Positions 2,839 to 34,280 of a stretch of DNA of 64,000 nucleotides are shown here, one piece after another. Positions within the stretch are counted from its first letter, which is position 1, and every line of letters starts with the position of its first letter. The position numbers and the translations under genes were made by a program. The DNA comes from Opitutaceae bacterium TAV5 (GTDB lineage Bacteria; Verrucomicrobiota; Verrucomicrobiia; Opitutales; Opitutaceae), in NCBI GenBank assembly GCA_000242935.3, contig CP007053.1, positions 1,612,001-1,676,000 on the forward strand, given 5' to 3'. The notes under the pieces are model-generated. The model saw only the letters and a list, made by a program, of their open reading frames with translations, made no database searches and was not told the DNA's origin.

Positions 2839-4089
2839 ATGGCCAGATTCAAAACCATCCGCGACCTCGACCTCGCCGGCAAACGCGTCTTCATCCGCGT
2901 CGATTTCAACGTTCCCCAGGACAAGGCCACCGGCGCCATCACCAACAACCAGCGCATCGTCGCCGCGCTCCCCACGATCAACTACGCCCTCGAAAAAGGC
3001 GCCGCGGTCGTCCTCGCCAGCCATCTCGGCCGTCCCAACGGCCAGAAAGTCGCCAAATACACCCTCAAGCCTGTCGCCGACGAACTGGCCAGGCTCCTCG
3101 GCAAGCCGGTAAAATTCCTCGACGACTGCGTCGGCCCCGCCGTCGAGGCCGCCTGCGCCCCCGGCACGCTCAAGGCCGGTGACGTCGTCCTCCTCGAAAA
3201 CCTCCGCTTCCACATCGAGGAAGAAGGCAAGGTCAAGAACGAGGACGGCACCTCCACCAAGGCCGACAAGGCCGCCGTCGAAGCCTTCCGCGCCAGCCTC
3301 AGCAAGCTCGGTGACGTTTACGTCAACGATGCCTTCGGCACCGCCCACCGCGCGCACTCGTCCATGGTCGGCGTCAACCTTCCCGCCAAGGCCGCCGGCG
3401 TCCTCATGGAGGCCGAGCTTACCGCTTTCGCCAAGGTGCTGGACAACCCGCAGCGTCCTCTCCTCGCCATCCTCGGCGGCGCCAAGATCGCGGACAAGAT
3501 TCCGCTGATCAACAACCTCATCGAGAAAGCCGACGCCATCATCGTCGGCGGCGGCATGGCCTTCACCTTCAAGAAGGTCATCAACCACATGGAAATCGGC
3601 AACAGCCTCTTCGACGCCGAAGGCGCGAAGCTCGTCCCCGAACTCGTCGAGAAAGCCAGGGCCAGGGGCGTGAAGATCGTCCTTCCCGTCGATTACGTCA
3701 TCGCCGACAAGTTCGCCGCGGACGCCGCCTCGAAAACGGCGGACGACGCCAGCGGCATCCCTGCCGGCTGGATGGGTCTCGACATCGGCCCGAAGTCCAT
3801 CGCGCTCTTCACCGAAACGATCAAGGCGAGCAAGACCATCATCTGGAACGGCCCCGCCGGCGTGTTCGAATTCGAGAAGTTTGCCGAAGGCACCAAGGCC
3901 CAGGCCGCCGCCGTTGCCGCCGCCACCGCTGCCGGCGCCACGACGGTCGTCGGAGGCGGCGACACCGCCACCGCCGCGAAGAAATTCAAGGTCGCCGACA
4001 AGGTCACCCATTGTTCGACCGGCGGCGGCGCCAGCCTCGAATTCCTCGAAGGCAAGGCCCTGCCGGGCGTCGTGTTCCTCGAAAACTGA
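2839..4089 (+). CDS. pgk: Phosphoglycerate kinase
   Basis: 416 residues. It transfers the acyl phosphate of 1,3-bisphosphoglycerate to ADP. Substrate-binding motifs RVDFNVP and SHLGRP lie in the N-terminal domain. The nucleotide domain carries [19 protein letters not shown] and [19 protein letters not shown]. The start ATG gives the standard [24 protein letters not shown]. It follows gap and precedes tpiA in the same direction, so the three probably supply lower glycolysis together. Confidence 0.98.
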
Positions 4090-4234
4090 GACGCCCGCCG
4101 GGTGTGAAACCGGAAGTCCGGGGTCTGAATTTGGTCGATTCCGCATCCGGCCCGTCTCACGATCGGCCGATCGCGCCACTCGCACCGAATCCCGGACTCC
4201 GGATTTCCTGCAAAATTCTTTCCATCAAAAAATC

Positions 4235-5002
4235 ATGATCCGCAAAAAACTCATCGCTGGTAACTGGAAGATGAACAAGACCTCCGCCGAAGCCACGCCG
4301 CTCGTGCAGGAGATCGTTGCCGCTGTCGGCAAGCAAACCGATGTCGACGTCGTCGTCGGTCCTCCCTACACGGCGCTCGAAGCGGCCGGCAAGGCCCTCG
4401 AGGGCTCCGTCATCAAGCTCGGCGCGCAAAACATGCACCCGGAAAAGAGCGGCGCGTACACTGGCGAGATCTCCGCCGAAATGCTGCGCAACCTCTACGT
4501 CACGCATGTGATCCTCGGACACAGCGAGCGCCGCACCTATTTCGCCGAGACCGACGCCTTCATCAACCGGAAGGTCATCGCCGCGCTCAAGAGCGAGCTC
4601 AAGCCGATCCTCTGCGTGGGCGAGACGCTCGCCGAGCGCGAAGGCAACCAGACGCTCAAGGTCGTGCAGACGCAGGTCGAGGCCGGCCTCGAAGGCGTGA
4701 GCAAGGAGCAGGCGCTCGCCATCGTCATCGCCTACGAGCCCGTCTGGGCGATCGGCACCGGCAAGGTGGCCACGACGGAGCAGGCGCAGGAAGTGCATGC
4801 CTTCATCCGCAGCCTCCTTGTCAAGCTCTTCGGCGATGCGGTGGCGCAGAAGATCCGCATCCTCTACGGCGGTTCGATGAAGCCCTCCAACGCGCCCGAA
4901 CTCCTCGCGCAGAAAGACATCGACGGCGGCCTCATCGGCGGTGCCTCGCTCGAGGCCCGCAGTTTCGTGGAGCTGGTCAACGCCGCCGCCGCGACCAAAT
5001 AG
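4235..5002 (+). CDS. tpiA: Triosephosphate isomerase
   Basis: 255 residues, the normal TIM-barrel length. It interconverts dihydroxyacetone phosphate and glyceraldehyde-3-phosphate. The motifs AGNWKMN (catalytic Lys), ILGHSERR (catalytic His), AYEPVWAIGTG (catalytic Glu) and the phosphate loop YGGSMKPSN are all intact. The frame is open further upstream, overlapping pgk, but the start at 4235 (MIRKKLIAGNWKMNK) fits the family exactly. The upstream extension is not family sequence. Confidence 0.97.
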   Translation: MIRKKLIAGNWKMNKTSAEATPLVQEIVAAVGKQTDVDVVVGPPYTALEAAGKALEGSVIKLGAQNMHPEKSGAYTGEISAEMLRNLYVTHVILGHSERRTYFAETDAFINRKVIAALKSELKPILCVGETLAEREGNQTLKVVQTQVEAGLEGVSKEQALAIVIAYEPVWAIGTGKVATTEQAQEVHAFIRSLLVKLFGDAVAQKIRILYGGSMKPSNAPELLAQKDIDGGLIGGASLEARSFVELVNAAAATK

Positions 5003-21685: not shown

Positions 21686-22492
21686 ATGAGCACATCGCCA
21701 CTCCTCCGCGCCGTTCCCGCTGACCCTGCCCCCGACGCCGGCCCGTACCGCCGCGGCGGCTGGCCGGTGGTCCTCGCTTCGCTTGTCGGCACGCTGGCGG
21801 CGATCGCCGGCTTCGCGTTCTTCGGTCGCCATGCCCCGACTCTCGCCTGGATTCCGGCGACGCTCGCCGGCGCGCTCAGCCTGTGGGGATGGCTCTGCGT
21901 CATCCGGGCCCTGCGCGATAAAAGCGTGCTGCCCCGCTCGCATTCCGTCCTCGCCGGCGTGCTCGGTTTCAACGTCATCTGCACCAGCCGCGGAGTCGCC
22001 GCCACGGCTTTCGTCTATCCCGACGTCCTGCCTCCCGGCGGCACGGCGCGCCTTCTTGTCTTCCTGGAAAACTACGCCTCGCGCCAGCGCGTTGTCCACG
22101 CCCGCATCTCGCACCATCCCGGCCTCGACCGCCCCGTGCGCGACTATCTCGACTTCCACCTCGCGGCCGGCCAGGCGGCCGTCTACGAACTCCCCGTCCG
22201 CGCCACCGCGGAACTGACGCCCGGCTTCCACACCCTCCCGGTGCGCATTTGCGTGAGCCGCCCCAACGGCAAGGGCGTCCGCCTCCCCGGCAGCCGCCGA
22301 CACCTCTACGACATCTGGCGGGTCCGCTTCGCCGCTCCTTTCGAATACAAACCCGATCTGCCGCCCGCCCCGGCCACGACGGAGCCGCTGCCCGCCCCGC
22401 GCTTCCTCTCCCTCGCATCCGTGAGCGCACCCCGCCCCGACCTGGAAATCCTCCGGAAACTCGTCACCGATTCCGGCGCCCGCCAGAGTTGA
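21686..22492 (+). CDS. Membrane-anchored protein of unknown function
   Basis: 268 residues from the ATG at 21686; an ATG at 21653 would add 11. Two hydrophobic helices near the N-terminus (WPVVLASLVGTLAAIAGFAFF and LAWIPATLAGALSLWGWLCVI) are followed by a soluble beta-rich part with LPPGGTARLLVFLENYASRQRVVHARISHHPGL, resembling an Ig-like or DUF58-neighbour fold. No catalytic motif was seen. It directly follows the previous membrane gene. Confidence 0.6.
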   Translation: MSTSPLLRAVPADPAPDAGPYRRGGWPVVLASLVGTLAAIAGFAFFGRHAPTLAWIPATLAGALSLWGWLCVIRALRDKSVLPRSHSVLAGVLGFNVICTSRGVAATAFVYPDVLPPGGTARLLVFLENYASRQRVVHARISHHPGLDRPVRDYLDFHLAAGQAAVYELPVRATAELTPGFHTLPVRICVSRPNGKGVRLPGSRRHLYDIWRVRFAAPFEYKPDLPPAPATTEPLPAPRFLSLASVSAPRPDLEILRKLVTDSGARQS

Positions 22493-22643
22493 AACCGCTA
22501 AATGACGCTAAAAACCGCTAAAGGAGAACCGGTTGATAATGGAATCAGGAGAGCGGGGCATCACCTCCCAAGTGCAGACATTGTCGGGTCGTCCTGTCTG
22601 ACAATGTCTTTGTTGAGCGTCCGTTAGCGCCCTTTAGCGGTTC
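22491..22643. repeat. Inverted 'CGCTAAA' phrase repeat with inner palindrome
   Basis: The left arm 22491-22524 repeats CGCTAAA three times (ACCGCTAAATGACGCTAAAA..). The right arm 22613-22643 carries the complementary TTAGCG phrases. Nested inside is a second inverted repeat, GACATTGTC..GACAATGTC (about 22577-22608). It fills the gap between two convergent genes. Confidence 0.8.
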
Positions 22644-22662
22644 CCTCTGCTGCGGTTTCCGC

Positions 22663-23922
22663 TCACACGAACGGCGCTCCCGTGCCCTCGCCGACGACCG
22701 GCCGGACCGGCTCACCCGCCGCCGGCGCCGAGCGCGGTTTCGCAAACGCCACCGCCGCCACCGCCATCACCGCCGCGCACAGGCCGAGCGCCAGCCGCGG
22801 ACCCCAGTGCGCTGCCGCCCACCCCGTCAGCAGCGCCCCGATCGGCGCCACCCCCTGCGCCATCACAAACAGCCCCATCACGCGGCTCCGCTTGTCGTCC
22901 GCCACGCGCGCCTGGATCAGCGTGTTGCTGCCCGCCATCACCAGCACCACCGCCGTCCCGCTGACAAAATAACCGACATACGCCACCCACACCGACGGAC
23001 TCAGCGCGATCACCAGCGAACTCGCCGCCACCAGCACCGTGCCGCGCACGATCCACGGACGGAGCTGGTCCACCGTCGTGCGCGTCCCCAGGATGATCGC
23101 GCTCAGCAACGCCCCCGCGCCCACCGCCGAATAAAAATGCCCCAGCATGGCCGCATTGCCGTCAAAAACCCCGCCCGCAAACACCGACGCCAGCGTGCTC
23201 GCCCCGAACCCCGCCAGCGCGTTGACCGCCACCAGCAGGAGCGGCCTCCGCAGCCCGCCTTCCGCCCGCACGTAGGCCAGGCCCGCCCCGAAGTCTTCCC
23301 ACGCCCGCGTCACCCGCTCGCGCGGCGGCCGCGGCTGCACGCGCATCATCCACAGACTCAGGATCACCGGCAGGTAACTCACGGCATCGATCGCGTAACA
23401 CACGCCCGCGCTCCAGCGGTTGATGAGCACGCCCGCGATCGCCGGCCCGAGCAACCGCGCGATGTTGAACATCGAGGAATTGAGCGCGATGGCATTGGGC
23501 AGATCCTCGCGCCGGTCCACCATCTCCGCCACGAAGGACTGCCGCGTCGGAAACTCGAACGCATTGATGAATCCCTGCACCAGCGAAAGCCCCACCAGCA
23601 CCGTGATCGTCATGTTCCCGGTCAGCGTCACGGTCGCCAGCGACGCCGATTGCACCAGCGAACACATCTGCAACCCGATCAGCAGCCGGCGCCGGTCCAG
23701 CCGGTCGCCCGTCACCCCCGTGAACGGCGCCAGCACCAGCAGGGGAATCTGCGTGGCAAACCCCACCAGCCCCACGTGAAACGGACTCGCCGCCAGCTTG
23801 TACGCCAGCCACATGGAGGCTGTCGTTGTCATCCAGTTGCCCATCAGCGAGATCGCCTGGCCGGAGAAGAACAGCCGGTAGTTGCGGGAACGGAACGAGC
23901 GCAGGAGCGAAACGGTTTTCAC
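22663..23922 (-). CDS. MFS exporter, EntS-like (MFS_3)
   Basis: 419 residues with a GTG start (KTVSLLRSFRSRNYRLFFSGQAISLMGNWMTTTASMWLAYKL), the characteristic beginning of the EntS-like export subfamily. The loop 2-3 motif FTGVTGDRLDRRRLLIG and about 12 hydrophobic helices are present. EntS exports enterobactin; many relatives export drugs or unknown metabolites, and no siderophore genes are nearby, so the substrate is open. It is divergent from rpsB. Confidence 0.88.
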   Translation of the reverse strand: MKTVSLLRSFRSRNYRLFFSGQAISLMGNWMTTTASMWLAYKLAASPFHVGLVGFATQIPLLVLAPFTGVTGDRLDRRRLLIGLQMCSLVQSASLATVTLTGNMTITVLVGLSLVQGFINAFEFPTRQSFVAEMVDRREDLPNAIALNSSMFNIARLLGPAIAGVLINRWSAGVCYAIDAVSYLPVILSLWMMRVQPRPPRERVTRAWEDFGAGLAYVRAEGGLRRPLLLVAVNALAGFGASTLASVFAGGVFDGNAAMLGHFYSAVGAGALLSAIILGTRTTVDQLRPWIVRGTVLVAASSLVIALSPSVWVAYVGYFVSGTAVVLVMAGSNTLIQARVADDKRSRVMGLFVMAQGVAPIGALLTGWAAAHWGPRLALGLCAAVMAVAAVAFAKPRSAPAAGEPVRPVVGEGTGAPFV

Positions 23923-24175
23923 GGGAAAAGAAACCGCCCATCATCAACCCGTCCCGACGACACCGTCCATACCCGAAAACGGTGACCGGGGCCCGACGGC
24001 CCGGGCTTCCCGCACTTCGCGCTTGCCTCGGCCTCCCCTGATCCGTGTGATCGACCCTTTCCTGCCCGCTTCCGGGCCGGGAAACCAGTCACACACAACC
24101 ACAACACTCCATCACCCGATCGCAAGGCGGCCCACTGGCCGACCTGTGTGTCAGGAAGATACATAGATCAACATC

Positions 24176-25081
24176 ATGAACGTCACTGCCAAAGACCTGC
24201 TCGACGCCGGCGTCCACTTCGGTCACCAGACCAAGCGCTGGAACCCGCGCTCCAAGCCCTACGTGTTCGACCACCGCCAGGGCATCACCATCATCGACCT
24301 CGGCAAGACCCACGAACTGCTCAGGAAAGCCTACACCTTCATCGAGGACACCGTCGCCAACGGCGGCAACGTGCTCTTTGTCGGCACCAAGAAGCAGGCC
24401 CAGGAAATCCTCCGCGAGGCCGCCACCTCCACCAGCATGCCCTACTGCGTCGACCGCTGGCTCGGCGGCACGCTCACCAACTTCGCGACCGTCAAGAAAT
24501 CGATCGCCAAGTTCAAGAAATTCCAGGCCCTCGAGACCTCCGGCGACATCAACAAGCTCTCCGCCAAGGAAGGCGCCGCCATCAAGCGCGAGATGGTCCG
24601 CATGAACAAGAACTTCGCCGGCATCGTCGACATGCCCGAGCTTCCCTCGGCCATGTTCGTCGTCGACGCCAATCATGAAGACATCGCCGTCGCCGAAGCC
24701 GCCCGCTGCGGCATCCCCTGCGTCGGCCTGGTCGACACCAACTCCGACCCGACCAAACTCTCCCACCCGATTCCCGGCAACGACGACGCGGTGAAATCCA
24801 TCCGCATCATCGTCGACACCATCGTCGAGGCCGTGCAGAGCGGACTTTCCCAGCGTGACAGCCGTCGCGCCGCCCGTGGCGCCGCCGACCTCAAGGCCGC
24901 CAGCGCCGCCGTGGCCGCCGCCGCCGGCATCACCGAAGAACCCGCCGCCGTGGCCGTGGTCGAAATCGAGGATGAAGTCGTCGCCGACATCATCGGTGAA
25001 GACGGCGAAGTCATCAAGCCCGCCAAGAAGAAGGCCGCTCCGGTCCGCAAGAAAATCGCCGCCCCCAAGGACGACGAGTAA
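24176..25081 (+). CDS. rpsB: 30S ribosomal protein S2
   Basis: 301 residues. The core matches S2: [45 protein letters not shown], then [13 protein letters not shown] and [29 protein letters not shown]. The C-terminus is about 60 residues longer than E. coli S2: an Ala-rich stretch, an acidic patch ([16 protein letters not shown]) and a Lys-rich tail. It is paired with tsf 47 bases downstream, the usual bacterial order. The 250-base leader upstream is long enough to contain autoregulatory structure. Confidence 0.97.
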
Positions 25082-25128
25082 GCCGCCCTCCAGCCAATCC
25101 CTCCCTCCGGAAAGGAACCCGTTTAACA

Positions 25129-25737
25129 ATGAGTACCGCTACAACAACGACAGCAATTACCGCCCAGATGGTGAACAGCCTGCGCGAACAGACCGGCGCC
25201 GGCATGATGGACTGCAAGAAGGCCCTGGTCGAAACCAACGGCAACGTCGAGGAAGCCATCACCATCCTCCGCAAGAAAGGCAATGCCTCCGCCGCCAAGC
25301 GCGCCGACCGCGCCACCAAGGAAGGCCGGGTCGAAAGCTACATCCACCTCGGTGGCAAGGTAGGCGTCCTCGTCGAGGTCAACTGCGAGACCGATTTTGT
25401 GGCCCGCAACGAAGAGTTCGGCGCGTTCGTGAAGGACATCTGCCTCCACATCGCCGCCGCCAGCCCGATCTGCGTGTCGCGCGACGAGGTGCCCGAAGAG
25501 AACATCGCCAAGGAGCGCGAGATCGCCACTGCGCAGGTCGCCGGCAAGCCGCCCGCGGCGATCCAGAAGATCGTCGAAGGCAAGCTCGACAAGTACTTCT
25601 CGACCGTCGCCCTGCTCGACCAGCCTTTCGTCAAGCAGCCCGAAAAGACGGTGAAGGAAATCCTCACCGAGCAGATTGCGAAGACCGGCGAGAACATCCA
25701 GATCCGCCGTTTCGCCCGCTTCCAGCTCGGCGCCTGA
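25129..25737 (+). CDS. tsf: Elongation factor Ts
   Basis: 202 residues, nearer the short form of Thermus and cyanobacteria than the 283-residue E. coli protein. The N-terminal UBA-like domain [38 protein letters not shown] and the EF-Tu contact motif [14 protein letters not shown] are clear. Only one dimerisation subdomain is present. It recycles EF-Tu-GDP. It is followed by an intrinsic terminator that closes the rpsB-tsf operon. Confidence 0.96.
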
Positions 25738-25773
25738 CCGGCACGGTCCGGCGAACCGTTTCGCTTCATTCCA

Positions 25774-25807
25774 AAAACCGTCCCGGGCACTCCGGGACGG
25801 TTTTTTA
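25774..25807 (+). terminator. Intrinsic terminator after tsf
   Basis: The stem ACCGTCCCGG/CCGGGACGGT encloses a short GCACT loop and is followed by TTTTTT. It has the classic form and ends the rpsB-tsf transcript. Confidence 0.93.
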
Positions 25808-25867
25808 TGCCCGCATCGGGAGGATCGCCATTACGGATCGTATGCGTTCCGGATTCAAACCGGGAGG

Positions 25868-25973
25868 GCCACAAAAAACACAAAATTCCTTTCTGTCCGA
25901 CGAGAATCTCTCGCGCGCTTATAAGCGCGATGGGGGATTTCATGCGCGGTGTGTTTTTTCGTGTTTTTCGTGG
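25868..25973. repeat. Degenerate inverted phrase repeat of the ACGAAA family
   Basis: The left arm CCACAAAAAACACAAAATTC (25869-25888) and right arm GTGTTTTTTCGTGTTTTTCG plus TGG (25951-25973) are imperfect complements. It is a decayed relative of the elements at 2715-2800 and 57065-57197. The rest of the 330-base gap between tsf and mntR shows no gene. Confidence 0.6.
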
Positions 25974-26071
25974 CCATTCTTCCTCCTTCGGTTGCGGCTC
26001 AGCCACCCCAAGGCCTTTGTGTAAAAATCCGAAGGCTTTGGGGCTTTGGTATGGCCCCCCGCCACTCACCT

Positions 26072-26572
26072 TCAGCCGCGCTTCAGGGCGCGCTCGAAGG
26101 CCGCCAGGGTTTCCGGGCTCACGTGGTGCTCGATGCCTTCGGCGTCGCGTTGCGCCGCGGCTTCCGGCACGCCCTGAAGACGCAGAAATTCCACCACGAT
26201 CTCGTGCCGCCGCCTCGCGTCACTGGCGGTCTTGCTGCCAAGCTCCGTCAGGAAAATCGAACGATACGGCAGTGACGTCACGTAGCCCAGACGCTGCAAC
26301 CGCGCGATCGTCCGGTTCACGGTCACATGCGTCACCCCGAACTTGCGCGCCAGATCGGTGACGCGGGCCTCGCCCATGGTGGCGATCAGCTCGGCAATGG
26401 CTTCCACATAATCTTCGGCCGTTTCGCGCGCATGCGCTTCCCGCGTGCTGCGCAGCCCCTCCGCCTGCGTCAGCTTTTCCTTGCGCGACGCCGCCGCTCC
26501 GGCGCGAGCGGAGGGTTTGCGCGCGACATTCTTCCGCGTAGCGGCGGTCGATCGGGTGGCTCCGGATGTCAT
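26072..26572 (-). CDS. mntR: Manganese-responsive transcriptional regulator MntR (DtxR family)
   Basis: 166 residues. A Lys/Arg/Ala-rich tail of about 40 residues precedes the DtxR winged helix ETAEDYVEAIAELIATMGEARVTDLARKFGVTHVTVNRTIARLQRLGYV. The metal-binding helices follow: RRHEIVVEFLRLQGVPEAAAQRDAEGIEHHVSPETLAAFERAL. It closely resembles E. coli MntR, which represses Mn uptake when Mn is sufficient. It is divergent from a metal-uptake operon, and a TAGC-N4-GCTA palindrome lies about 50 bases upstream of the start. Confidence 0.9.
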   Translation of the reverse strand: MTSGATRSTAATRKNVARKPSARAGAAASRKEKLTQAEGLRSTREAHARETAEDYVEAIAELIATMGEARVTDLARKFGVTHVTVNRTIARLQRLGYVTSLPYRSIFLTELGSKTASDARRRHEIVVEFLRLQGVPEAAAQRDAEGIEHHVSPETLAAFERALKRG

Positions 26573-26620
26573 GCCGGCACTTCACACCAAAACGCGCCTC
26601 ATGTCCAAGACAAACAGGAT

Positions 26621-26634
26621 GTAGCGCTTGCTAC
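26621..26634. promoter_or_regulatory. MntR-box-like palindrome 1 (mntR side)
   Basis: GTAGC-GCTT-GCTAC is a perfect inverted repeat with the core TAGC-N4-GCTA, the half-site spacing of the E. coli MntR box. It is 49 bases from the mntR start codon, suited to autoregulation. Confidence 0.7.
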
Positions 26635-26660
26635 GGATGTAAATCAAAGTGGCTCAGACA

Positions 26661-26757
26661 GAGCGGCGGCGTCCCCGCCGCCGGACGCGCGCCAGCGCGC
26701 CTGTCTGGTATGATGGCGGGACTGTCATCCCGTCCGGCGGCGGGGACGCCGCCGCTC
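26661..26757. repeat. Perfect 27-base inverted repeat
   Basis: The arms 26661-26687 (begins GAGCGGCGGCGTCCCC) and 26731-26757 are exact reverse complements, with a 43-base loop that itself contains CGCGC palindromes. It sits between the two MntR-like boxes. It is a REP-like mobile palindrome or a transcription-blocking hairpin; it has no gene and no U-tract. Confidence 0.85.
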
Positions 26758-26821
26758 CTGTTTTTGCAACAACGCGAGATTTGTTTTGACGGCCACAAAT
26801 AAATGCTTCGGCTATTAATTG

Positions 26822-26833
26822 TAGCTTATGCTA
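26822..26833. promoter_or_regulatory. MntR-box-like palindrome 2 (uptake-operon side)
   Basis: TAGC-TTAT-GCTA is a perfect palindrome with the same TAGC-N4-GCTA core as the box at 26621. It lies in an AT-rich stretch about 80 bases before the start of the outer-membrane protein gene, where a repressor would block the operon promoter. Confidence 0.7.
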
Positions 26834-26911
26834 AATCTATTCCCACGAGCTACTCGTCAGCCGCCCGGACACCCGGATCGGCAATCCGCAAAACGAAGAA
26901 CCGTTTCCTTC

Positions 26912-27829
26912 ATGCAAAAAAAGAACACCACATCCACCAACGCCCGGCCGTATCGTAAAAAGAGCGCGGCCGGTTTCCGCTGCGCGCTTCCGGTGGCGGG
27001 GCTCTCCATCGTTCTGGCCGCCCCGCCATTGCGGGCCGGAGACGACACCCCGCCCGACAAGTCGGCCTGCACGCTCTTCAATCCCACGCCGAAGGAGTGG
27101 ATGCGCGCACTCTCCACTGACCGGCCCGACCAGACCGAAAGCCCGTACACGGTCGATGCCGGCCACGTCCAGATCGAGCTCGATTTCGTCAACTACACGT
27201 ACGACAGCGACGGCGGCATTCGCACCCGGGAGTACAGAGTGGCTCCGCTCAACCTCAAGGTCGGCCTGCTCAACCACGTCGATCTCCAGCTGATGGTCGA
27301 TCCTTACATCCGCTCGCAGGTCAAGGATCGCAACGCCGGCACCAGAACCACGGTTTCGGGATCCGGCGACCTCACGACCCGCCTCAAGATCAACTTGTGG
27401 GGCAACGACGGCGGCGCGACGGCCCTCGGCATCATGCCCTTCGTCAAGTGGCCCCTGTCGTCCAATGACATTCGCAACGGCAAGACCGAGGGCGGCGTGA
27501 TCGTCCCCTTCGCCGCCGGGCTTCCCGCCGACTGGAGCATGGGAGCCATGACGGAGGTGGATTTCGTCAGCGACGGCGACGGCGGTTACGACACCGAATG
27601 GGTCAACTCCATCACCTTCAGCCACGACATCACCGGAAAACTCGGCGGCTACATCGAGTTCGTGGCCGTGACCGGCAGCGCGCCCGGCTTCAGATGGCAG
27701 GGCCAGGTGGACATCGGGTTCACCTGGGCTCTCGGTGAAAACAGCCAGCTCGATTTCGGCTGCAACTTCGGCGTCACCGACTCGGCGCCCGATTACCAAC
27801 CCTTCGCCGGATTTTCCCGGCGCTTCTGA
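26912..27829 (+). CDS. Outer-membrane protein of the MetA-like 'transporter' family
   Basis: 305 residues from the ATG at 26912. An upstream ATG at 26828 lies inside the operator palindrome and is unlikely. The signal peptide is KSAAGFRCALPVAGLSIVLAAPPLRAG. The mature part is amphipathic beta-rich (LSTDRPDQTESPYTVDAGHVQIELDFVNYTYD; FTWALGENSQLDFGCNFGVTDSAPDYQPFAGFSRRF) and ends in Phe, as outer-membrane barrels do. It is the first gene of an Mn-type ABC operon with an MntR-like operator, so a role as the outer-membrane entry for the metal is inferred. Confidence 0.75.
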   Translation: MQKKNTTSTNARPYRKKSAAGFRCALPVAGLSIVLAAPPLRAGDDTPPDKSACTLFNPTPKEWMRALSTDRPDQTESPYTVDAGHVQIELDFVNYTYDSDGGIRTREYRVAPLNLKVGLLNHVDLQLMVDPYIRSQVKDRNAGTRTTVSGSGDLTTRLKINLWGNDGGATALGIMPFVKWPLSSNDIRNGKTEGGVIVPFAAGLPADWSMGAMTEVDFVSDGDGGYDTEWVNSITFSHDITGKLGGYIEFVAVTGSAPGFRWQGQVDIGFTWALGENSQLDFGCNFGVTDSAPDYQPFAGFSRRF

Positions 27830-27856
27830 CTCTCTTCCTCCATTCGTCATACATAA

Positions 27857-28795
27857 ATGAATACCATACAATCCACCGCCGCCCTGCGCGGCCTTCCCTG
27901 CCGGGCGCGTCGGGCGCTCACGATCGCAACGCTTGTCCTCGGCGCTTTTGGCATCGGCTTCGCGGCCGATGCCAAGCCCAAACGCGTGGTCACCACGTTC
28001 ACGATCATCCAGGACATGGCGCAGAATGTCGCCGGCACCGCCGCCATCGTCGAATCCATCACCAGGCCCGGCGCGGAAATTCACGAATACGAGCCCACAC
28101 CGCTCGACATCGTCAAAGCCCAGTCCGCCGATCTCGTCCTCTGGAACGGCATGGGGCTGGAACGCTGGTTCGAGAAATTTTTCAGCAATGTCCGCAACGT
28201 TCCGAGTGTCGTCCTCACCGAAGGCATCGAGCCCCTGAGCATCAGCGAAGGCCCCTATAACGGGAAACCCAATCCCCATAGCTGGATGTCGCCCGCCAAC
28301 GCCATCATCTACGTGGAGAACATCCGCAAGGCATTCGTGGCGCTCGATCCCGAAAACGCGGCCACCTATAACGCCAACGCCGCCGCCTACACCGAAAAGC
28401 TCAAGGCCATCGACGAGCCGATCCGCAAAAAACTCGAGGAAATCCCCGAGAGCCAGCGCTGGCTGGTGAGCAGCGAGGGCGCATTCTCGTACCTGGTCCG
28501 CAACTACGGCATGAAGGAGGTCTGGCTCTGGCCCGTGAATGCCGACGAGGAAGGCACCCCGCGACAGGTCCGCAAGGTCATCGACATCGTGCGCAAGAAC
28601 AGGATTCCGGTCGTCTTCAGCGAAAGCACGATCAGCGACAAGCCGGCCCGCCAGGTGGCCAAGGAAACGAAGGCCCGCTACGGCGGCGTCCTCTACGTCG
28701 ATTCGCTCACGACCGACGACGGGCCGGCTCCCACCTACCTCAAGCTGCTCGAATACAATGCCCAGACGATTGTGAACGGCTTTTTCGGAAAATGA
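27857..28795 (+). CDS. Metal ABC transporter substrate-binding protein (SitA/MntC type)
   Basis: 312 residues with an N-terminal signal ([20 protein letters not shown]). Cluster A-I motifs supply the four expected metal ligands: His in [10 protein letters not shown], His in [10 protein letters not shown], Glu in SSEGAFSYL and Asp in [16 protein letters not shown]. The absence of a His-rich loop and the Glu/Asp pair favour Mn(II)/Fe(II) over Zn(II). It delivers metal in the periplasm to the ABC permeases encoded downstream. A hairpin with a short U-tract follows the stop. Confidence 0.92.
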
Positions 28796-28828
28796 GTTCC
28801 GCGGACGGAAAACAACAAAAGCCCGGCC

Positions 28829-28860
28829 GCGTGGGAAAAACCCGCCGCCGGGCCTTTGTC
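28829..28860 (+). terminator. Internal hairpin terminator/attenuator
   Basis: GCCCGGC..GCCGGGC pairs, with an inner GCGTGGG/CCCGC part, and is followed by CTTTGT. It lies between the binding-protein and ATPase genes. It probably lets only part of the transcripts continue, giving excess binding protein. Confidence 0.6.
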
Positions 28861-28868
28861 TTCAAACT

Positions 28869-29801
28869 ATGAGAACGAATCCTTCAACTGCCGCCACCAT
28901 CGACGTCTCCGTCGAGGACGTCACGGTCACCTACAACAACGGCAATGTCGCCGTCTTCGATGCGAGTTTCCGGCTGGCCGCGGGCACGATCTGCGCGCTC
29001 GTCGGCGTCAACGGCAGCGGCAAATCCACGCTCTTCAAGGCGATCATGGGCTTTCTCACGCCCGCCCGGGGCCGGGTGCGGATCGGCGGGGATCCTGTCG
29101 CCGCCGCGCAAAAGAAAAACCGGGTCGCCTATGTGCCGCAAGCCGAGGAAGTGGACTGGTCGTTTCCCGTCAGCGTGTGGGACGTCGTGCTCATGGGGCG
29201 CTACGGCTACATGAACTTCCTGCGCATCCCGCGGCCCGAAGACAAACGGCTGGCCGAGGAAAGCCTGCGCCGCGTGCAGATGTGGGATTTCCGCCATCGC
29301 CAGATCGGCGAACTCTCCGGAGGCCAGAAAAAGCGCGTCTTCCTCGCCCGCGCGCTGGCGCAACAAGGCCGTGTCATCCTCCTCGACGAACCGTTTACCG
29401 GCGTCGATGTGAAGACCGAGGCCGCCATCATCGACCTCCTGCGCGAACTCCGCGCCTCCGGCCACATCATCCTCGTCTCGACCCACAATCTCGGCTCCGT
29501 CCCCGAATTCTGCGACCAGGCCGTGATCATCAACCGCACCGTGCTCGCCTTCGGGCCGATCGCGGACGTTTTTACCGAAGCCAATCTCGCCAAGGCCTTC
29601 GGCGGTGTGCTCCGCCATTTCCGTTTCGACGAGTCCACGGTGCAAAAACATGACGGGCGCGCCGTCACCGTGCTCACCGACGACGAGCGCCCGCTCGTCT
29701 TCGGCAAGGGAGGCCACCTCGAATTCCCGCACCGTGCCGGCCATGAATCTCTCCTGGAAAAGCGCGCCCGCGAAGAGAGAGAGGCGGGGGGAAAATCATG
29801 A
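28869..29801 (+). CDS. Metal ABC transporter ATP-binding protein (SitB/MntA type)
   Basis: 310 residues. Walker A is GVNGSGKST, the signature [15 protein letters not shown], Walker [13 protein letters not shown] and the switch His is in [35 protein letters not shown] is typical of the Mn/Zn/Fe chelate subfamily. It is about 50 residues longer than the core because of a C-terminal extension ([25 protein letters not shown]..) also seen in SitB-like proteins. Its stop overlaps the next start as ATGA. Confidence 0.95.
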
Positions 29802-30670
29802 GTGAACACCTGCAATCCCTTCTCATCCCGTTTCAGTACGAGTACATGCTCAAGGCCATGTGGGTGAGCGCCCTGATCGGCGGCGTGTGCGCGCTGCTCT
29901 CGTGCTTCATCACGCTGAAAGGCTGGTCCCTCATGGGCGACGCGCTTTCGCATGCGATCGTGCCGGGCGTCACGCTGGCGTATCTGCTCGGCGCTCCGTT
30001 CGCGCCCGGCGCGTTTTTTTCCGGCCTGCTCGCGGCCCTCGGCATGGGCTTTGTGAAGACAAAGACACAGCTCCGGGAGGATGCCGTCATCGGCGTGGTG
30101 TTCACGGCGTTTTTCGCGCTCGGCGTGCTGCTCATTTCGATCTACCCGAGCGGCGTCAGCCTGCGCACGATCGTCTTCGGCAACATCCTCGGCATTTCCG
30201 ACGCCGACGTGAAACAGGTGGCGATCATCTCGCTGGTCACCGTCGCCGTGCTCGGCCTGAAACGGAAGGACCTTGTTCTCTTCTGTTTCGACCCCGACCA
30301 GGCGCGCGCGCTCGGCCTCAACGTCCTCGCGCTGCACTTCACGCTGCTCACGCTGCTGGCCGCGACCGCCGTCGCCGCCCTGCAAACCGTGGGCGCGTGC
30401 CTCGTGGTGGCGACGCTCGTCACACCGGGAGCCACCGCGTATCTGCTCACGGATCGTTTCACCCGCATGCTCGCCATCGCCGGGAGCATCGGGGTCGCCA
30501 CCGGCCTGACCGGCGCTTATGCCAGCTACTTCCTCGACGGCTCGACCGGCGGCTGCATTGTCGTGCTGCAGACGCTGATCTTCCTCGCCGCCCTCGTATT
30601 TGCCCGGAAACACGGGATGCTCGCGAGCCGCGCCCGGCGTCGCCGCGCGCTCGAAAGGAGGCCGGCATGA
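29798..30670 (+). CDS. Metal ABC transporter permease (SitC type)
   Basis: 290 residues of the ABC-3 family with eight or so hydrophobic helices. The conserved [26 protein letters not shown] and [23 protein letters not shown] are clear. It is overlapped by four bases at both ends (ATGA with the ATPase and with the second permease), so translation is coupled. Confidence 0.95.
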
Positions 30671-31530
30671 ACTGGCTCAGCCCTTTCCACTACGACTTCA
30701 TGCTGGCCGCCTTCGCGCTGAGCGTGCTCGTCGGCACGGTCTGCGCCGTTTTTTCCTGTTTCCTCGTGCTGAAAGGATGGTCGCTGATGGGCGACGCCAT
30801 CTCGCACGCCGTGCTGCCCGGCATCGTGCTGGCTTACGTCGCGGGCGTGCCGCTGGCCATTGGCGCGTTTCTCTCCGGCCTGGCTTGCGCGATCGGCACG
30901 GGTTTCATCAAGAGCAACAGCCGCCTGAAGGAGGACACCGTGATGGGCGTGGTGTTCACCGGCCTGTTCGCGCTCGGTCTGGTGATTTTCACCAAGGTCG
31001 AGAGCGACCAGCACCTCAACCACATCCTGTTCGGCAGCCTGCTCGGCCTGCCGAAAGCGCAGGTGATCCAGACCGCGATCATCGGCGGCGCGACGCTGCT
31101 CGTGACGCTCGCGCTGCGCAAGGACCTGCTGCTTTTCTGCTTCGATCCCGGCCACGCCCGCAGCGTCGGCATCAATGTAACGGTTCTCAACTACGTGATG
31201 CTTTCGTTGCTGGCGTTGACCATCGTGGCCTCGCTTCAGGCGGTGGGCGTCATTCTCGTCGTCGCCATGCTGGTGACGCCGGGCTGCACGGGTTTTCTGC
31301 TCACGGACCGTTTCGGTCCGATGATGCTCGTCGCGGTCGGCACCTCGGTCGGGTCCAGCCTGGCCGGCGTGTATGTAAGTTTTTTCATCAACGGCTCGAC
31401 CGGCTCCTGCATCGTGCTGGCACAGACGGCCGTGTTTGTGCTCGCGCTCGTCTTCGCGCCGAAACGCGGCCTGCTCGCCAACCGGCTTCTGCGCCGACGC
31501 CGGGCGATGAACCCGGCCCGGACGGGTTGA
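30667..31530 (+). CDS. Metal ABC transporter permease (SitD type)
   Basis: 287 residues from the ATG at 30667, which overlaps the previous stop; the frame is open further upstream but that part is a shadow. It is the partner ABC-3 permease, with [26 protein letters not shown] and GVILVVAMLVTPGCTGFLLTDRF. The two permeases form a heterodimeric channel, as in the SitABCD systems. Confidence 0.95.
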   Translation: MNWLSPFHYDFMLAAFALSVLVGTVCAVFSCFLVLKGWSLMGDAISHAVLPGIVLAYVAGVPLAIGAFLSGLACAIGTGFIKSNSRLKEDTVMGVVFTGLFALGLVIFTKVESDQHLNHILFGSLLGLPKAQVIQTAIIGGATLLVTLALRKDLLLFCFDPGHARSVGINVTVLNYVMLSLLALTIVASLQAVGVILVVAMLVTPGCTGFLLTDRFGPMMLVAVGTSVGSSLAGVYVSFFINGSTGSCIVLAQTAVFVLALVFAPKRGLLANRLLRRRRAMNPARTG

Positions 31531-31555
31531 CGGCAATGTTAGGGTGTGAGGGTCG

Positions 31556-32350
31556 ATGACCATCACCCGCCGTACATTTTTACGGATTGCCTGCCTGGCG
31601 CTGCCGGGGTCGGGATTTGTCCCGGCCGCCTTGCTGGCCGCCGCGGGTGAGGCCACGCATGTCGTCCGCAAGGGCGACACGCTCTCCGCCATCGCCGCGC
31701 GCTACGGTGTGACCGTGGCTGCGCTCCGGCAGCGCAACCGCCTCACCGGCGATGTGATCAAGGTCGGCCAGAAACTCGTCATCCCGGCCGCATCCGGCTC
31801 ACGCGGTGCGGCCGCGGCGGGGGCCTCCTCCGCCGTTGCCGCCCGCAGCGCGGCGCGCCCGCCTGCCGTGCTCGACGATGTCATTGCGGAAACCCGCAAG
31901 GTGCGCATCCGGAGCGGGCGCTGGAAGTACATCGTCGTCCACCACAGCGGCATCGAGCGCGGCAACGCGCTGTCCTATCACCGCGCCCACCTGCGCCGCG
32001 GCATGGAGCACGGGCTCGCGTACCATTTCGTCATCGGCAACGGGCGCGATTCACCTGACGGCAAGATCGAGATCGGCCCGCGCTGGCGCGGACAACTCGA
32101 TGGCGGCCACGTCCGCAACCGCGTGTACAACCAGCACGGCATCGGCATCTGCCTGGTGGGCAATTTCCAGAACCGCCGGCCGGACAAAAAACAGCTCGAT
32201 TCGCTCTTCGCCCTGGTGGACTGGCTCCGCGACGACGCTCCGCTCGGCGGCACGCCGTCCGTCACGGTTCACCGGTGGGTGGATATCAACCACACGGTGT
32301 GCCCGGGACGCTATTTTCCCTTCTCCACGCTGAAAAGCCGCTACGCGTAA
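31556..32350 (+). CDS. LysM-domain N-acetylmuramoyl-L-alanine amidase (amidase_2), exported
   Basis: 264 residues. The N-terminus TITRRTFLRIACLALPG fits a twin-arginine signal. A LysM peptidoglycan-binding repeat follows (HVVRKGDTLSAIAARYGVTVAALRQRNRLTGDVIKVGQKLVIP), then a low-complexity linker and an amidase_2/PGRP domain. Zinc ligands are visible in IVVHHSG, DGGHV and NHTVCPGRYFP. It cleaves the amide bond between MurNAc and the peptide stem. It lies 26 bases after the metal transporter in the same direction; the functional link is unclear. Confidence 0.88.
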   Translation: MTITRRTFLRIACLALPGSGFVPAALLAAAGEATHVVRKGDTLSAIAARYGVTVAALRQRNRLTGDVIKVGQKLVIPAASGSRGAAAAGASSAVAARSAARPPAVLDDVIAETRKVRIRSGRWKYIVVHHSGIERGNALSYHRAHLRRGMEHGLAYHFVIGNGRDSPDGKIEIGPRWRGQLDGGHVRNRVYNQHGIGICLVGNFQNRRPDKKQLDSLFALVDWLRDDAPLGGTPSVTVHRWVDINHTVCPGRYFPFSTLKSRYA

Positions 32351-32382
32351 CCGGGAATGCCTTTTCCCGAACCGCCTCTCCA

Positions 32383-34122
32383 TCACCGGCGGCGGATCAC
32401 CGCCCAGCCGAGGAGCACGGCGCCGGCGAGAAGGGCGCAGGCGGCAGGCTCGGGAACGGCCGTAACCCGGATAGTGCCGGTGTCGGCAAAATCTCCGGTA
32501 TCCCAGTACAGACCGGCCGAAAGGAGCGCCCGGTCAAAATCGAAACTCACATCGGCGACATCGTAGCTGCTCGCGGTAATGAGCCGGAACGAATCGCCAG
32601 CCTGAGCGGAATAACCGTCCAGCACCACCTCGATCAGAGACCCGGTCTCCATGGTCAGGAGATTGCTGCCGGTGATTTTGGTGAAATCGTATTGCCCGCT
32701 GAGGGTGAATGTCAGCGAGGAACCGGCGTCTATGGTGAGATTGCTCAGGGAAGAGTCGGCCGTCAGCGTCCAGTTCGAGACGCCGGCGAGTGCCAGGTCG
32801 ATGGCGCCGCTGCTGACCACGGTCGTTTGGCCTGTGAAACGGGAAGCGTCTTCCATGGTCAGATCGACCATGCTCCCCGAGCCGGAAGAATAGATGTCGC
32901 CTGTAAAGGTGTACTGTCCGACGCCCTCGACGCGGCCCTTGCTGGCGGCATGGATGGAATGTGCGCCCGAACCGACGGTGAGCGTTTCGATGCCGTTGAG
33001 CGTGATTTTGCTGTTGGTGCCGGAGGCATAGACGCCGTGGCCGGTGGTATTGATATTCACCTTACCGGTTTTGATCGTGATGTTACTGCCTGTGCCGGAA
33101 GAATAGAGGCCGTAGGAATTGCTGCCGGTGGTGGTGACGGTTGCCTCGTCGGAGCGGATGGAACCTCCCGAAAGGACATACAGGCCATGGGCGCCGGACC
33201 CGTCTGTATTTACCTTCAAGATACCTGCCTCAATGATTCCGGGCGTTCCACTCAGAAGCGCGCCGGTATGAAGCCCGTGGGCGGCCTCTCCGGAGGTTGT
33301 GATGTCGGCGGTCCCGGTCACCGTCACGGTTGCCTGCCCCCGGGCATGGATGCCGTAAGCCCCATAGGACAAGAAAGACCCCGGGGACTTCGCGCCGGTC
33401 GTCGTGACGGTCAGATCGCCGTCAATGGAAACAGTCCCGCCATCGGCCCGGATGCCGTAGCTTCCTTTGCCGGTCGTCGCGAGTGTCGTGTCACCGGTGA
33501 TCCGTATATCGGAAGATGCGCTTCCGGTCCACAGGCCGTATCCGCGCTCCTGGGCGGTGGTGATTCCCAATACGCCGGTGACATTCACCTTGCCGGCGCT
33601 GGCATAAATACCGGCGGCTTCTGTCGTGCTGCTTCCGGGATGAGTCGTGTTTCTCAGATTGATACTGATCCCGCCACCGGAAGATGCCGACGCATCCAGG
33701 GTAATGGCCGAAGTTGCATCGGATTTGTCATTACGCACACCGGAACCGACATAATCGTAAACGTCGATGATGATCCGGTCAGAAGCCGAAGCCGTCTTCA
33801 GGACAATGTTGTTGCCGGTGCCGGTGCTTCCATTCAGGTAAACGCCGTGTCCGTACATCGGACTGGTCGACGTCTCGTAGTTTTTTCCGGACGATATCCG
33901 GATGTCACCTTCCAGGAGGGTCGTGTAACCGGATTTTTCGCCGTTGATCTGCACCGCGCTGTTCGCCGCGTTGGGAGAATCCAGGGTCACCTTGATCTCG
34001 CCCGAAAAAGTTTCGTCCTTGTTGAGTATCTGGCCCCCGTCATAGTCGGCGCGGGCACCGGATGGGAGCAGGGAGAGCAGGGCAATGAATGCCGCCTGTT
34101 TGAGCATGGGTTTGGTCGTCAT
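32383..34122 (-). CDS. PEP-CTERM surface protein with autotransporter-like beta-helix passenger
   Basis: 579 residues from the ATG at 34122 (a second ATG lies at 34107). Signal peptide MLKQAAFIALLSLLPSGARA. The body is a repetitive beta-helix with Gly-Leu-Tyr-Ser motifs (GSNSYGLYSSGTGSNITI, GYGLWTGSASSDIRITG, HGVYASGTNSKITL), as in passengers of autotransporters. No beta-barrel follows. The C-terminus VPEPAACALLAGAVLLGWAVIRRR is a PEP-CTERM sorting signal. It is probably exported, cut by an exosortase/archaeosortase-like enzyme and displayed. A palindromic promoter element lies about 110-150 bases upstream. Confidence 0.85.
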   Translation of the reverse strand: MTTKPMLKQAAFIALLSLLPSGARADYDGGQILNKDETFSGEIKVTLDSPNAANSAVQINGEKSGYTTLLEGDIRISSGKNYETSTSPMYGHGVYLNGSTGTGNNIVLKTASASDRIIIDVYDYVGSGVRNDKSDATSAITLDASASSGGGISINLRNTTHPGSSTTEAAGIYASAGKVNVTGVLGITTAQERGYGLWTGSASSDIRITGDTTLATTGKGSYGIRADGGTVSIDGDLTVTTTGAKSPGSFLSYGAYGIHARGQATVTVTGTADITTSGEAAHGLHTGALLSGTPGIIEAGILKVNTDGSGAHGLYVLSGGSIRSDEATVTTTGSNSYGLYSSGTGSNITIKTGKVNINTTGHGVYASGTNSKITLNGIETLTVGSGAHSIHAASKGRVEGVGQYTFTGDIYSSGSGSMVDLTMEDASRFTGQTTVVSSGAIDLALAGVSNWTLTADSSLSNLTIDAGSSLTFTLSGQYDFTKITGSNLLTMETGSLIEVVLDGYSAQAGDSFRLITASSYDVADVSFDFDRALLSAGLYWDTGDFADTGTIRVTAVPEPAACALLAGAVLLGWAVIRRR

Positions 34123-34233
34123 GTGAAAATAAGTACGGAATGTGGCAAGATCGCCGGAAGAAGTGTCAGACGCCGTGCGGGAGACGTGGAATGGCCAGCC
34201 GGCGTGGAGTGATGTGAATGAGTGTGCGCGACG

Positions 34234-34280
34234 AGTATACCGGGTGAACCTGACCCGCGCTAGTCGGGTAAACACCCGAT
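34234..34280 (-). promoter_or_regulatory. Palindrome plus -10 element, copy C (PEP-CTERM gene)
   Basis: On the minus strand TCGGGT-GTTT-ACCCGA (34265-34280) is followed by CTAGCG and then TATACT at 34234-34239. There are 27 bases between TTTACC and TATACT. The start site would leave a leader of about 105 bases before the ATG at 34122. Confidence 0.65.

Follow-up and report, generated by a model that had tools for sequence, protein, structure and literature searches.

The predicted outer-membrane barrel protein encoded at positions 26912-27829 is proposed to be a TonB-independent channel for Mn2+ (or Fe2+), serving as one step of import under the control of the repressor MntR. The gene lies in a stretch of 64,000 nucleotides from the Opitutaceae bacterium TAV5, referred to as the window. 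The location in the outer membrane and the conduction of ions are predicted, and a probability of roughly 0.64 is assigned to this reading. A known channel family would thereby take a role known from other proteins. What is new is that the linkage to metal-uptake genes recurs, that the partners switch, and that a TonB receptor carrying a CQNC motif can take the barrel's place. The sequence-only reading had put forward a candidate outer-membrane manganese entry protein in an mnt operon, and these three lines of evidence make that role probable, with transport itself predicted.

In the proposed mechanism, MntR would leave its boxes when manganese is scarce. The derepressed operon would supply a putative 12-stranded COG4313-type barrel, a binding protein with H-H-E-D ligands and an ABC importer. 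Mn2+ would diffuse through the barrel across the outer membrane without TonB. Its path may be lined by acids of the N-terminal segment (D70, D73 and D82) and by strand acids that seemingly face inward (E193, E249 and D281, and the less specific E89, D124 and D217). The inward facing, read from strand alternation only, and the role of these barrel acids are both putative. The binding protein would then capture the ion, and the ABC transporter would pump it inward.

The open reading frame on the plus strand contains 305 codons, with an ATG at 26912 and a stop codon ending at 27829. The start at 26912 is more plausible than the in-frame ATG at 26828 because a start at 26828 would overlap the operator. 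The 305-aa product matches the Pfam family PF13557 (Phenol_MetA_deg) with an E value of 5.2e-24 and 86 bits (cut-off 22), and it is the only PF13557 match in the whole 7.4-Mb genome. PF13557 was the sole Pfam match of the frame; neither the plug domain PF07715 nor the TonB barrel PF00593 was matched, and nothing in NCBIfam exceeded the cut-offs. By eye, the N-terminus is basic, then hydrophobic, and then reads LRA followed by GDD. A plausible signal peptide would end between these two triplets at about residue 42, with the mature part starting at about 27038. The C-terminus is SRRF, and the terminal Phe is aromatic as in COG4313/PF13557. The earlier assignment to the MetA family with a terminal Phe is thus confirmed, and the signal peptide that was read together with it appears plausible. 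A gene-calling artefact was rejected since relatives of the protein align along the mature length. A channel for phenolic compounds was rejected on the lack of such neighbour genes, and a TonB receptor on the absence of the plug domain.

The gene order supports a function in metal import. The gene mntR, at 26072-26572 on the minus strand, encodes a DtxR-family Mn-dependent repressor (NF008273, 177 bits, cut-off 153; PF02742 and PF01325) and is divergent from the barrel gene. The barrel gene comes first and is followed on the plus strand by a SitABCD-like importer. This consists of a periplasmic metal-binding protein at 27857-28795 (PF01297, E 6e-89), an ABC transporter ATPase of the Mn/Fe type at 28869-29801 (NF011630, 392.3 bits, just under the cut-off of 393), an ABC-3 permease at 29798-30670 (PF00950, E 9e-85) and a second ABC-3 permease at 30667-31530 (PF00950, E 1.3e-82). 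Only 28 bp separate the barrel gene from the binding-protein gene, and the ATPase/permease and permease/permease overlaps are 4 bases each. In the alignment, the four ligand positions of the binding protein are H76, H141, E207 and D282. This is the H-H-E-D pattern, which we take to be the Mn/Fe ligand set of PsaA/SitA-type binding proteins. No NRAMP match was found in the TAV5 genome, and the operon may therefore be its main manganese importer.

A palindrome resembling an MntR box, TAGC-N4-GCTA, was found by pattern scan upstream of the barrel gene at 26822-26833, and related loci support it. A second one is located at 26622-26633, 50 bp before mntR. As the sequence-only reading had stated, the barrel gene is the first gene behind an MntR-like operator and stands ahead of the binding-protein gene. 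The window holds the pattern twice, where 0.07 occurrences are expected; among 100 shuffles, a single one gave two. The 7.4-Mb genome holds six such sites in all. The remaining four, with open reading frames judged by eye, lie within frames (two) or between frames of doubtful reality (two), and no metal gene was recognised at any of them. In all, 17 boxes were found in 44 loci with barrel relatives (646 kb), compared with 1 in 40 control loci (506 kb). Three rearranged box patterns gave 24 vs 16, 11 vs 3 and 0 vs 2 sites in the case and control loci. The boxes of the case loci frequently have longer symmetric arms. Eleven of them, from 10 loci, lie where the barrel gene begins, and three more, from 3 loci, precede the binding-protein gene of an operon that holds the barrel. 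The barrel starts in L037, L038 and L071 are probably called too far upstream, since the box falls inside the chosen start-codon region. No published MntR box of the TAGC-N4-GCTA type was found in the literature search.

At the window locus, mntR adjoins the operon and an MntR-like box precedes the first gene, the two features by which an MntR regulon was recognised here. From this arrangement, Mn-dependent regulation of the operon by MntR is predicted, and mntR would regulate itself through the box at 26622-26633. In the promoter scan, the interval from mntR to the barrel gene gave no sigma-70-like promoter; one weak sigma-70-like site is just before the binding-protein gene at 27844-27872 (9 of 12 positions, 0.6 expected in the region). 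For this reason, we only infer that the barrel and importer genes share one transcript. In the interval that separates the two boxes, repeat analysis identified a 27-bp inverted pair without mismatches at 26661-26757, of which a 22-base part occurs 19 times in the genome, at four places as a close inverted pair. It is probably a REP-like repeat element, terminator-like too on the plus strand, and no part in the mechanism is claimed for it. An Rfam scan of 22000-34000 returned no RNA element.

The linkage in relatives was then compared. A protein search for relatives of the barrel with E values up to 1e-8 gave matches in 37 of 387 Verrucomicrobiota genomes. The search found 44 places, and 39 stretches remained when the window itself, three places sharing stretches and a contig-end fragment (G008) were left out. 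These 39 fetched stretches and 5 from another search make up the 44 case loci, with about 6-8 kb on each side where the contig allowed. The 40 control loci were the best PF13557 matches in the same genome sample that were not among these 44 places. Most of them belong to other families of the phylum, five are on stretches below 6 kb (L088, L089, L093, L103 and L110), and one (L104) is a distant relative of the query itself (25%, E 7e-8). The neighbourhoods were searched by tblastn with MntR, the binding protein, the ATPase and the permeases from the window and with NRAMP, DtxR, FeoB, KdpA, KdpB, P-type ATPase and RND queries from the loci. Pfam matches verified the NRAMP, DtxR, FeoB and KdpA queries.

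Mn/Fe uptake genes or mntR were found near 34 of the 44 case loci and near 1 of the 40 controls (Fisher p 2e-13, a value that ignores shared ancestry, with several loci per lineage in both sets). The recurring genomic linkage to Mn-uptake genes is thus strongly supported. Among the linked case loci, 21 carry a sit/tro ABC importer, 9 an NRAMP gene, 2 only mntR and 2 feoB (L070 and L073). The 10 unlinked loci comprise 2 beside kdp, 2 with czc/zntA only and 6 with none of these, one of which is on a 3.1-kb contig. The sole linked control, L113, has FeoB and NRAMP matches at distances of about 3 kb and about 6 kb, respectively. In nine loci (L039, L043, L045, L050, L052, L055, L056, L060 and L061), the barrel gene is located between the binding-protein and ATPase genes; in L006, 2.6 kb and other genes separate it from the ABC operon. 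In place of the genomic link to the degradation of hydrophobic compounds that goes with the functional assignment of COG4313/PF13557, the window and 34 of the 44 related loci have Mn/Fe uptake or MntR/DtxR-type genes as neighbours. A scan of viral contigs returned no relatives of the barrel. Several loci show particular arrangements. L037 and L048 hold two barrels of different type each, and L063 has a short remnant of a window-type barrel beside a second gene. The TroABCD-type operons of L045, L050, L055, L060 and L061 contain a DtxR-like stretch between two permease domains.

A tree of 52 proteins was labelled with the genomic contexts. The tree needs 28 context changes, where the minimum possible is 10 and shuffled labels give 33.6. 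Taken by themselves, the well-supported branches require no fewer than 7 changes for SitABCD, 7 for NRAMP and 4 for TroABCD. The outer-membrane partner is kept while the inner-membrane importers change. These repeated changes indicate that different inner-membrane importers share one kind of outer-membrane protein.

A census was performed in 37 genomes of the bacterium's own family for MntR, NRAMP and PF01297 places, the last with E values up to 1e-10. The 21 PF01297 places comprise 16 of Mn type and 5 others. The Mn-type label is our own, given by ligands and neighbours (9 with H-H-E-D, 7 with H-H-H-D beside a DtxR-like hit). Of the 16 Mn-type loci, 8 hold the barrel and 5 a CQNC-type TonB receptor, in 3 neither was found (G085, G260 and G223), and none holds both; this zero overlap has a chance of 0.013. 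Either the barrel or the CQNC receptor is present in 13 of the 16 Mn-type loci versus 0 of the 5 other ZnuA-family loci (p 0.003). The barrel alone, at 8 of 16 versus 0 of 5, gives a non-significant p of 0.11. Three of the five other loci encode a binding protein with a His-rich stretch, and none of these three holds the barrel.

The census receptors were sought by likeness to the receptor of L127 (E up to 1e-20), so that unlike receptors are missed, and the five so found all carry the CQNC motif (L127:1818-4049, L126:5909-8130, L145:2286-4454, L146:6787-8856 and L147:6654-8825). In L127 (genome G207), the TonB receptor (PF00593 and PF07715) sits exactly between mntR and the binding-protein gene. 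The receptor of L126 (G116) is split by a frame change and also adjoins mntR. In L145 and L147, the gene after that of the receptor encodes a thioredoxin-like protein (PF13098/PF13899), and the binding-protein gene comes next. A six-frame search of the 44 case loci gave no CQNC motif. In relatives, the barrel is replaced by the CQNC TonB receptor in the same operon position. Two non-CQNC TonB receptors, L149:1180-3453 and L151:1130-3349, lie about 2 kb from ZnuA-family genes that are not of Mn type. This indicates that the census ties the barrel and the CQNC receptor to Mn-type loci, and not outer-membrane genes as such. One of these two non-CQNC loci belongs to the window's own genome. A third TonB receptor unlike that of L127 is present beside an NRAMP gene in L130. 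The TroABCD-type operon of L147 also encodes a 491-aa permease-regulator fusion (2856-4328), in which the DtxR-like stretch (PF02742) forms the C-terminal part.

The MntR genes above the cut-off in these 37 genomes have an adjoining barrel in 7 of 10 cases, and it is absent in 3, those of L126, L127 and L128. No receptor gene of this kind was seen between mntR and the NRAMP gene in L128 (G018). Among the 16 close NRAMP homologues of the family genomes, 8 lack a barrel within about 2 kb, so that the barrel is not obligatory.

The fold was examined by profile and by structure prediction. A profile of 47 barrel-family sequences matched FapF in the PDB (E 5e-5), and a single-sequence phmmer search of the PDB with the barrel protein returned nothing. 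AlphaFold models of the whole protein and of the mature part, from alignments of 6 sequences each, reached a pLDDT of 51 both times, which is low confidence, with 16 or 11 strands. With the low-confidence model, Foldseek placed FapF chains on top (best E 2.9e-8) and NanC at rank 18, the COG4313 channel 4rl8 at rank 20 (E 1.6e-5) and the copper protein PcoB at rank 37. The barrel structure put up for checking is therefore supported only in part, by the profile match and, weakly, by the Foldseek ranks of FapF and 4rl8 with the low-confidence model. The N-terminal segment is present and conserved, with a model pLDDT below 50. Residues D70-D82, at the start of the PF13557 match, are taken to correspond to the plug region of Pput2725.

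Conserved acids were compared among 32 window-type relatives, 15 other relatives and 37 of the 40 other PF13557 proteins, with gaps left out; two of the controls dropped had an internal stop and one was short. The acids D70, D73, D82, D98, D166, E193, E249, D281 and D294 are present in 81-100% of the 32 window-type relatives and in 3-22% of the 37 other PF13557 proteins. E193, E249, D281 and D294 are conserved also in the 15 other relatives (80-100%). E76 (73%), E89, D124, D153 and D217 are conserved but commoner in the other PF13557 proteins (32-100%). The net charge did not differ from that of other PF13557 proteins (p 0.76 in the better alignment, p 0.26 in an earlier one). These acids support a putative acidic filter but do not prove it, because conservation within a clade is expected anyway.

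Outer-membrane manganese routes are known from a few other proteins. MnoP of Bradyrhizobium is TonB-independent, and its regulator is Mur. MnoP would share its job with the window barrel, and the two are likened here by function. In the sections available, MnoP (blr0095) is described as an outer-membrane Mn channel that is active in proteoliposomes and needed in vivo (PMC9334652). The same sections name MnoT of Burkholderia (with TseM) and OmpU of Vibrio as outer-membrane Mn routes; MnoT is a TonB receptor fed by a secreted binding protein, OmpU is a porin, and neither is described there as COG4313 (PMC9334652). A CQNC receptor with a thioredoxin-fold partner in an MntR-controlled module is reported from Stenotrophomonas maltophilia, and a CQNC receptor locus from Opitutales, in the available part of PMC13217887. 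This receptor is the outer-membrane member of the MntR-controlled module, and in TAV5 relatives it takes the operon position of the window barrel. However, it has plug and TonB-receptor barrel domains, and the window barrel has no plug domain. MnoP, MnoT, OmpU and the CQNC receptor are the proteins to which the literature search on outer-membrane Mn transport led (PMC9334652, PMC6011978 and PMC13217887).

The likeness of the window barrel to the COG4313/PF13557 channels (Pput2725 with structure 4RL8, TcpY and SphA; FapF) consists of the shared Pfam family and the profile match to FapF. In the accessible text of PMC4493636, Pput2725 is judged unlikely to serve hydrophilic solutes. Hydrophobic substrates are favoured by its authors, and a detergent is bound in the structure (PMC4493636). 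The window clade differs from these members, tied there to hydrophobic compounds, in its Mn/Fe importers nearby and its own conserved acids. FapF, in the source portions at hand, serves amyloid export; the window clade instead sits with Mn/Fe importers. The COG4313 literature, as far as its available portions extend, deals with aromatic compounds, indole, hydrocarbons, amyloid export, vaccine candidates and others (including PMC9581022, PMC7481262 and PMC12314914). No COG4313 member in a metal role was found in the literature searched by family name and by function, a scope that left out most subscription journals and covered the function matches in part. The earlier statement that the family is not described in manganese entry agrees with this search, in which no tie between COG4313 and manganese was found.

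Other explanations were weighed against an uptake channel. The barrel may belong to metal homeostasis without being specific for uptake, as a general divalent-cation pore or an efflux-side helper recruited by the operons of several metals. Relatives beside CusA/CzcA on Hymenobacter plasmids, the czcA-like neighbours of L002 and L041, and the two loci beside kdp favour such a role. However, 34 of the 44 loci go with importers or their regulator, and the barrel and a TonB receptor, an entry protein, stand in for each other in the census. This explanation is considered unlikely. Somewhat less likely again is the import of a metal chelate or an amphipathic metallophore in place of free Mn2+. The alternative gene encodes a TonB receptor, and TonB receptors usually take chelates. 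The hydrophobic substrates and the bound detergent of known COG4313 members, in the accessible text of PMC4493636, are also in line with it. Against it, no chelator biosynthesis gene was seen between mntR and the second permease, and the conserved positions of the clade are acidic.

It is improbable, to a greater degree, that the main substrate is Fe2+ or Zn2+ with manganese being incidental. The two feoB-linked loci agree with such a substrate, as do the H-H-H-D ligands of 9 binding proteins in a comparison of 22 that included the window's, a ligand set known too from Zn-binding TroA. On the other side, the window binding protein has H-H-E-D ligands, the regulator passes NCBI's cut-off for MntR, and the barrel is in none of the three census loci with a His-rich binding protein. 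A chance neighbour or an operon passenger, whose role in the envelope would have nothing to do with metals, is very improbable: the three Mn-type loci in which neither barrel nor CQNC receptor was found would agree with a passenger, but the linkage of 34/44 vs 1/40 and the repeated independent partner changes argue against it.

A TonB-independent channel for Mn2+ or Fe2+ is thus the preferred reading for the window barrel. For the family, we lean slightly towards a wider statement, namely that a large clade within COG4313 consists of cation channels of the outer membrane that work without TonB, mainly for Mn2+/Fe2+ under MntR/DtxR control and in some branches perhaps for K+ or czc metals. In Verrucomicrobiota, the barrel and the CQNC receptor would then be two unrelated, mutually exclusive solutions to one and the same outer-membrane step. 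The crossing of the outer membrane by Mn2+ is settled in very few bacteria. If the proposal is true, metal import becomes one of the roles of an outer-membrane channel family that is widespread but poorly understood. The exchange between barrel and TonB receptor in one operon position would also make it testable when bacteria pay for active manganese uptake.

The relatives beside other metal genes show the range of contexts. The barrel relative in L002 (64% identical) follows a CsoR-type repressor (PF02583) and is near a heavy-metal P-type ATPase gene and a czcA-like gene, and L041 has a czcA-like match about 5 kb off. The kdp-linked relatives L049:7802-8725 and L057:2854-3756 form one well-supported group in the tree, and these barrels are possibly an outer-membrane K+ route. 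The czc and kdp neighbours indicate that the clade serves several cations or that part of it has an efflux-side role; Fe, K and czc metals are likely substrates for some relatives. Further relatives are found on plasmids from other phyla. The Hymenobacter plasmid relatives L116, L117 and L119 are about 40% identical, and in L116 and L117 a DUF6660 gene lies between the barrel relative and CusA/CzcA. Similarly, the Calothrix plasmid relatives L118 and L125 (about 40% identical) have a czcA gene about 4 kb away. A Leptolyngbya plasmid relative (L120:5001-6641) is split in two, and the annotation places a transposase gene between the parts. In the window itself, a large repetitive protein is encoded on the minus strand at 32383-34275, with a C-terminal sorting-like tail that is PEP-CTERM in look.
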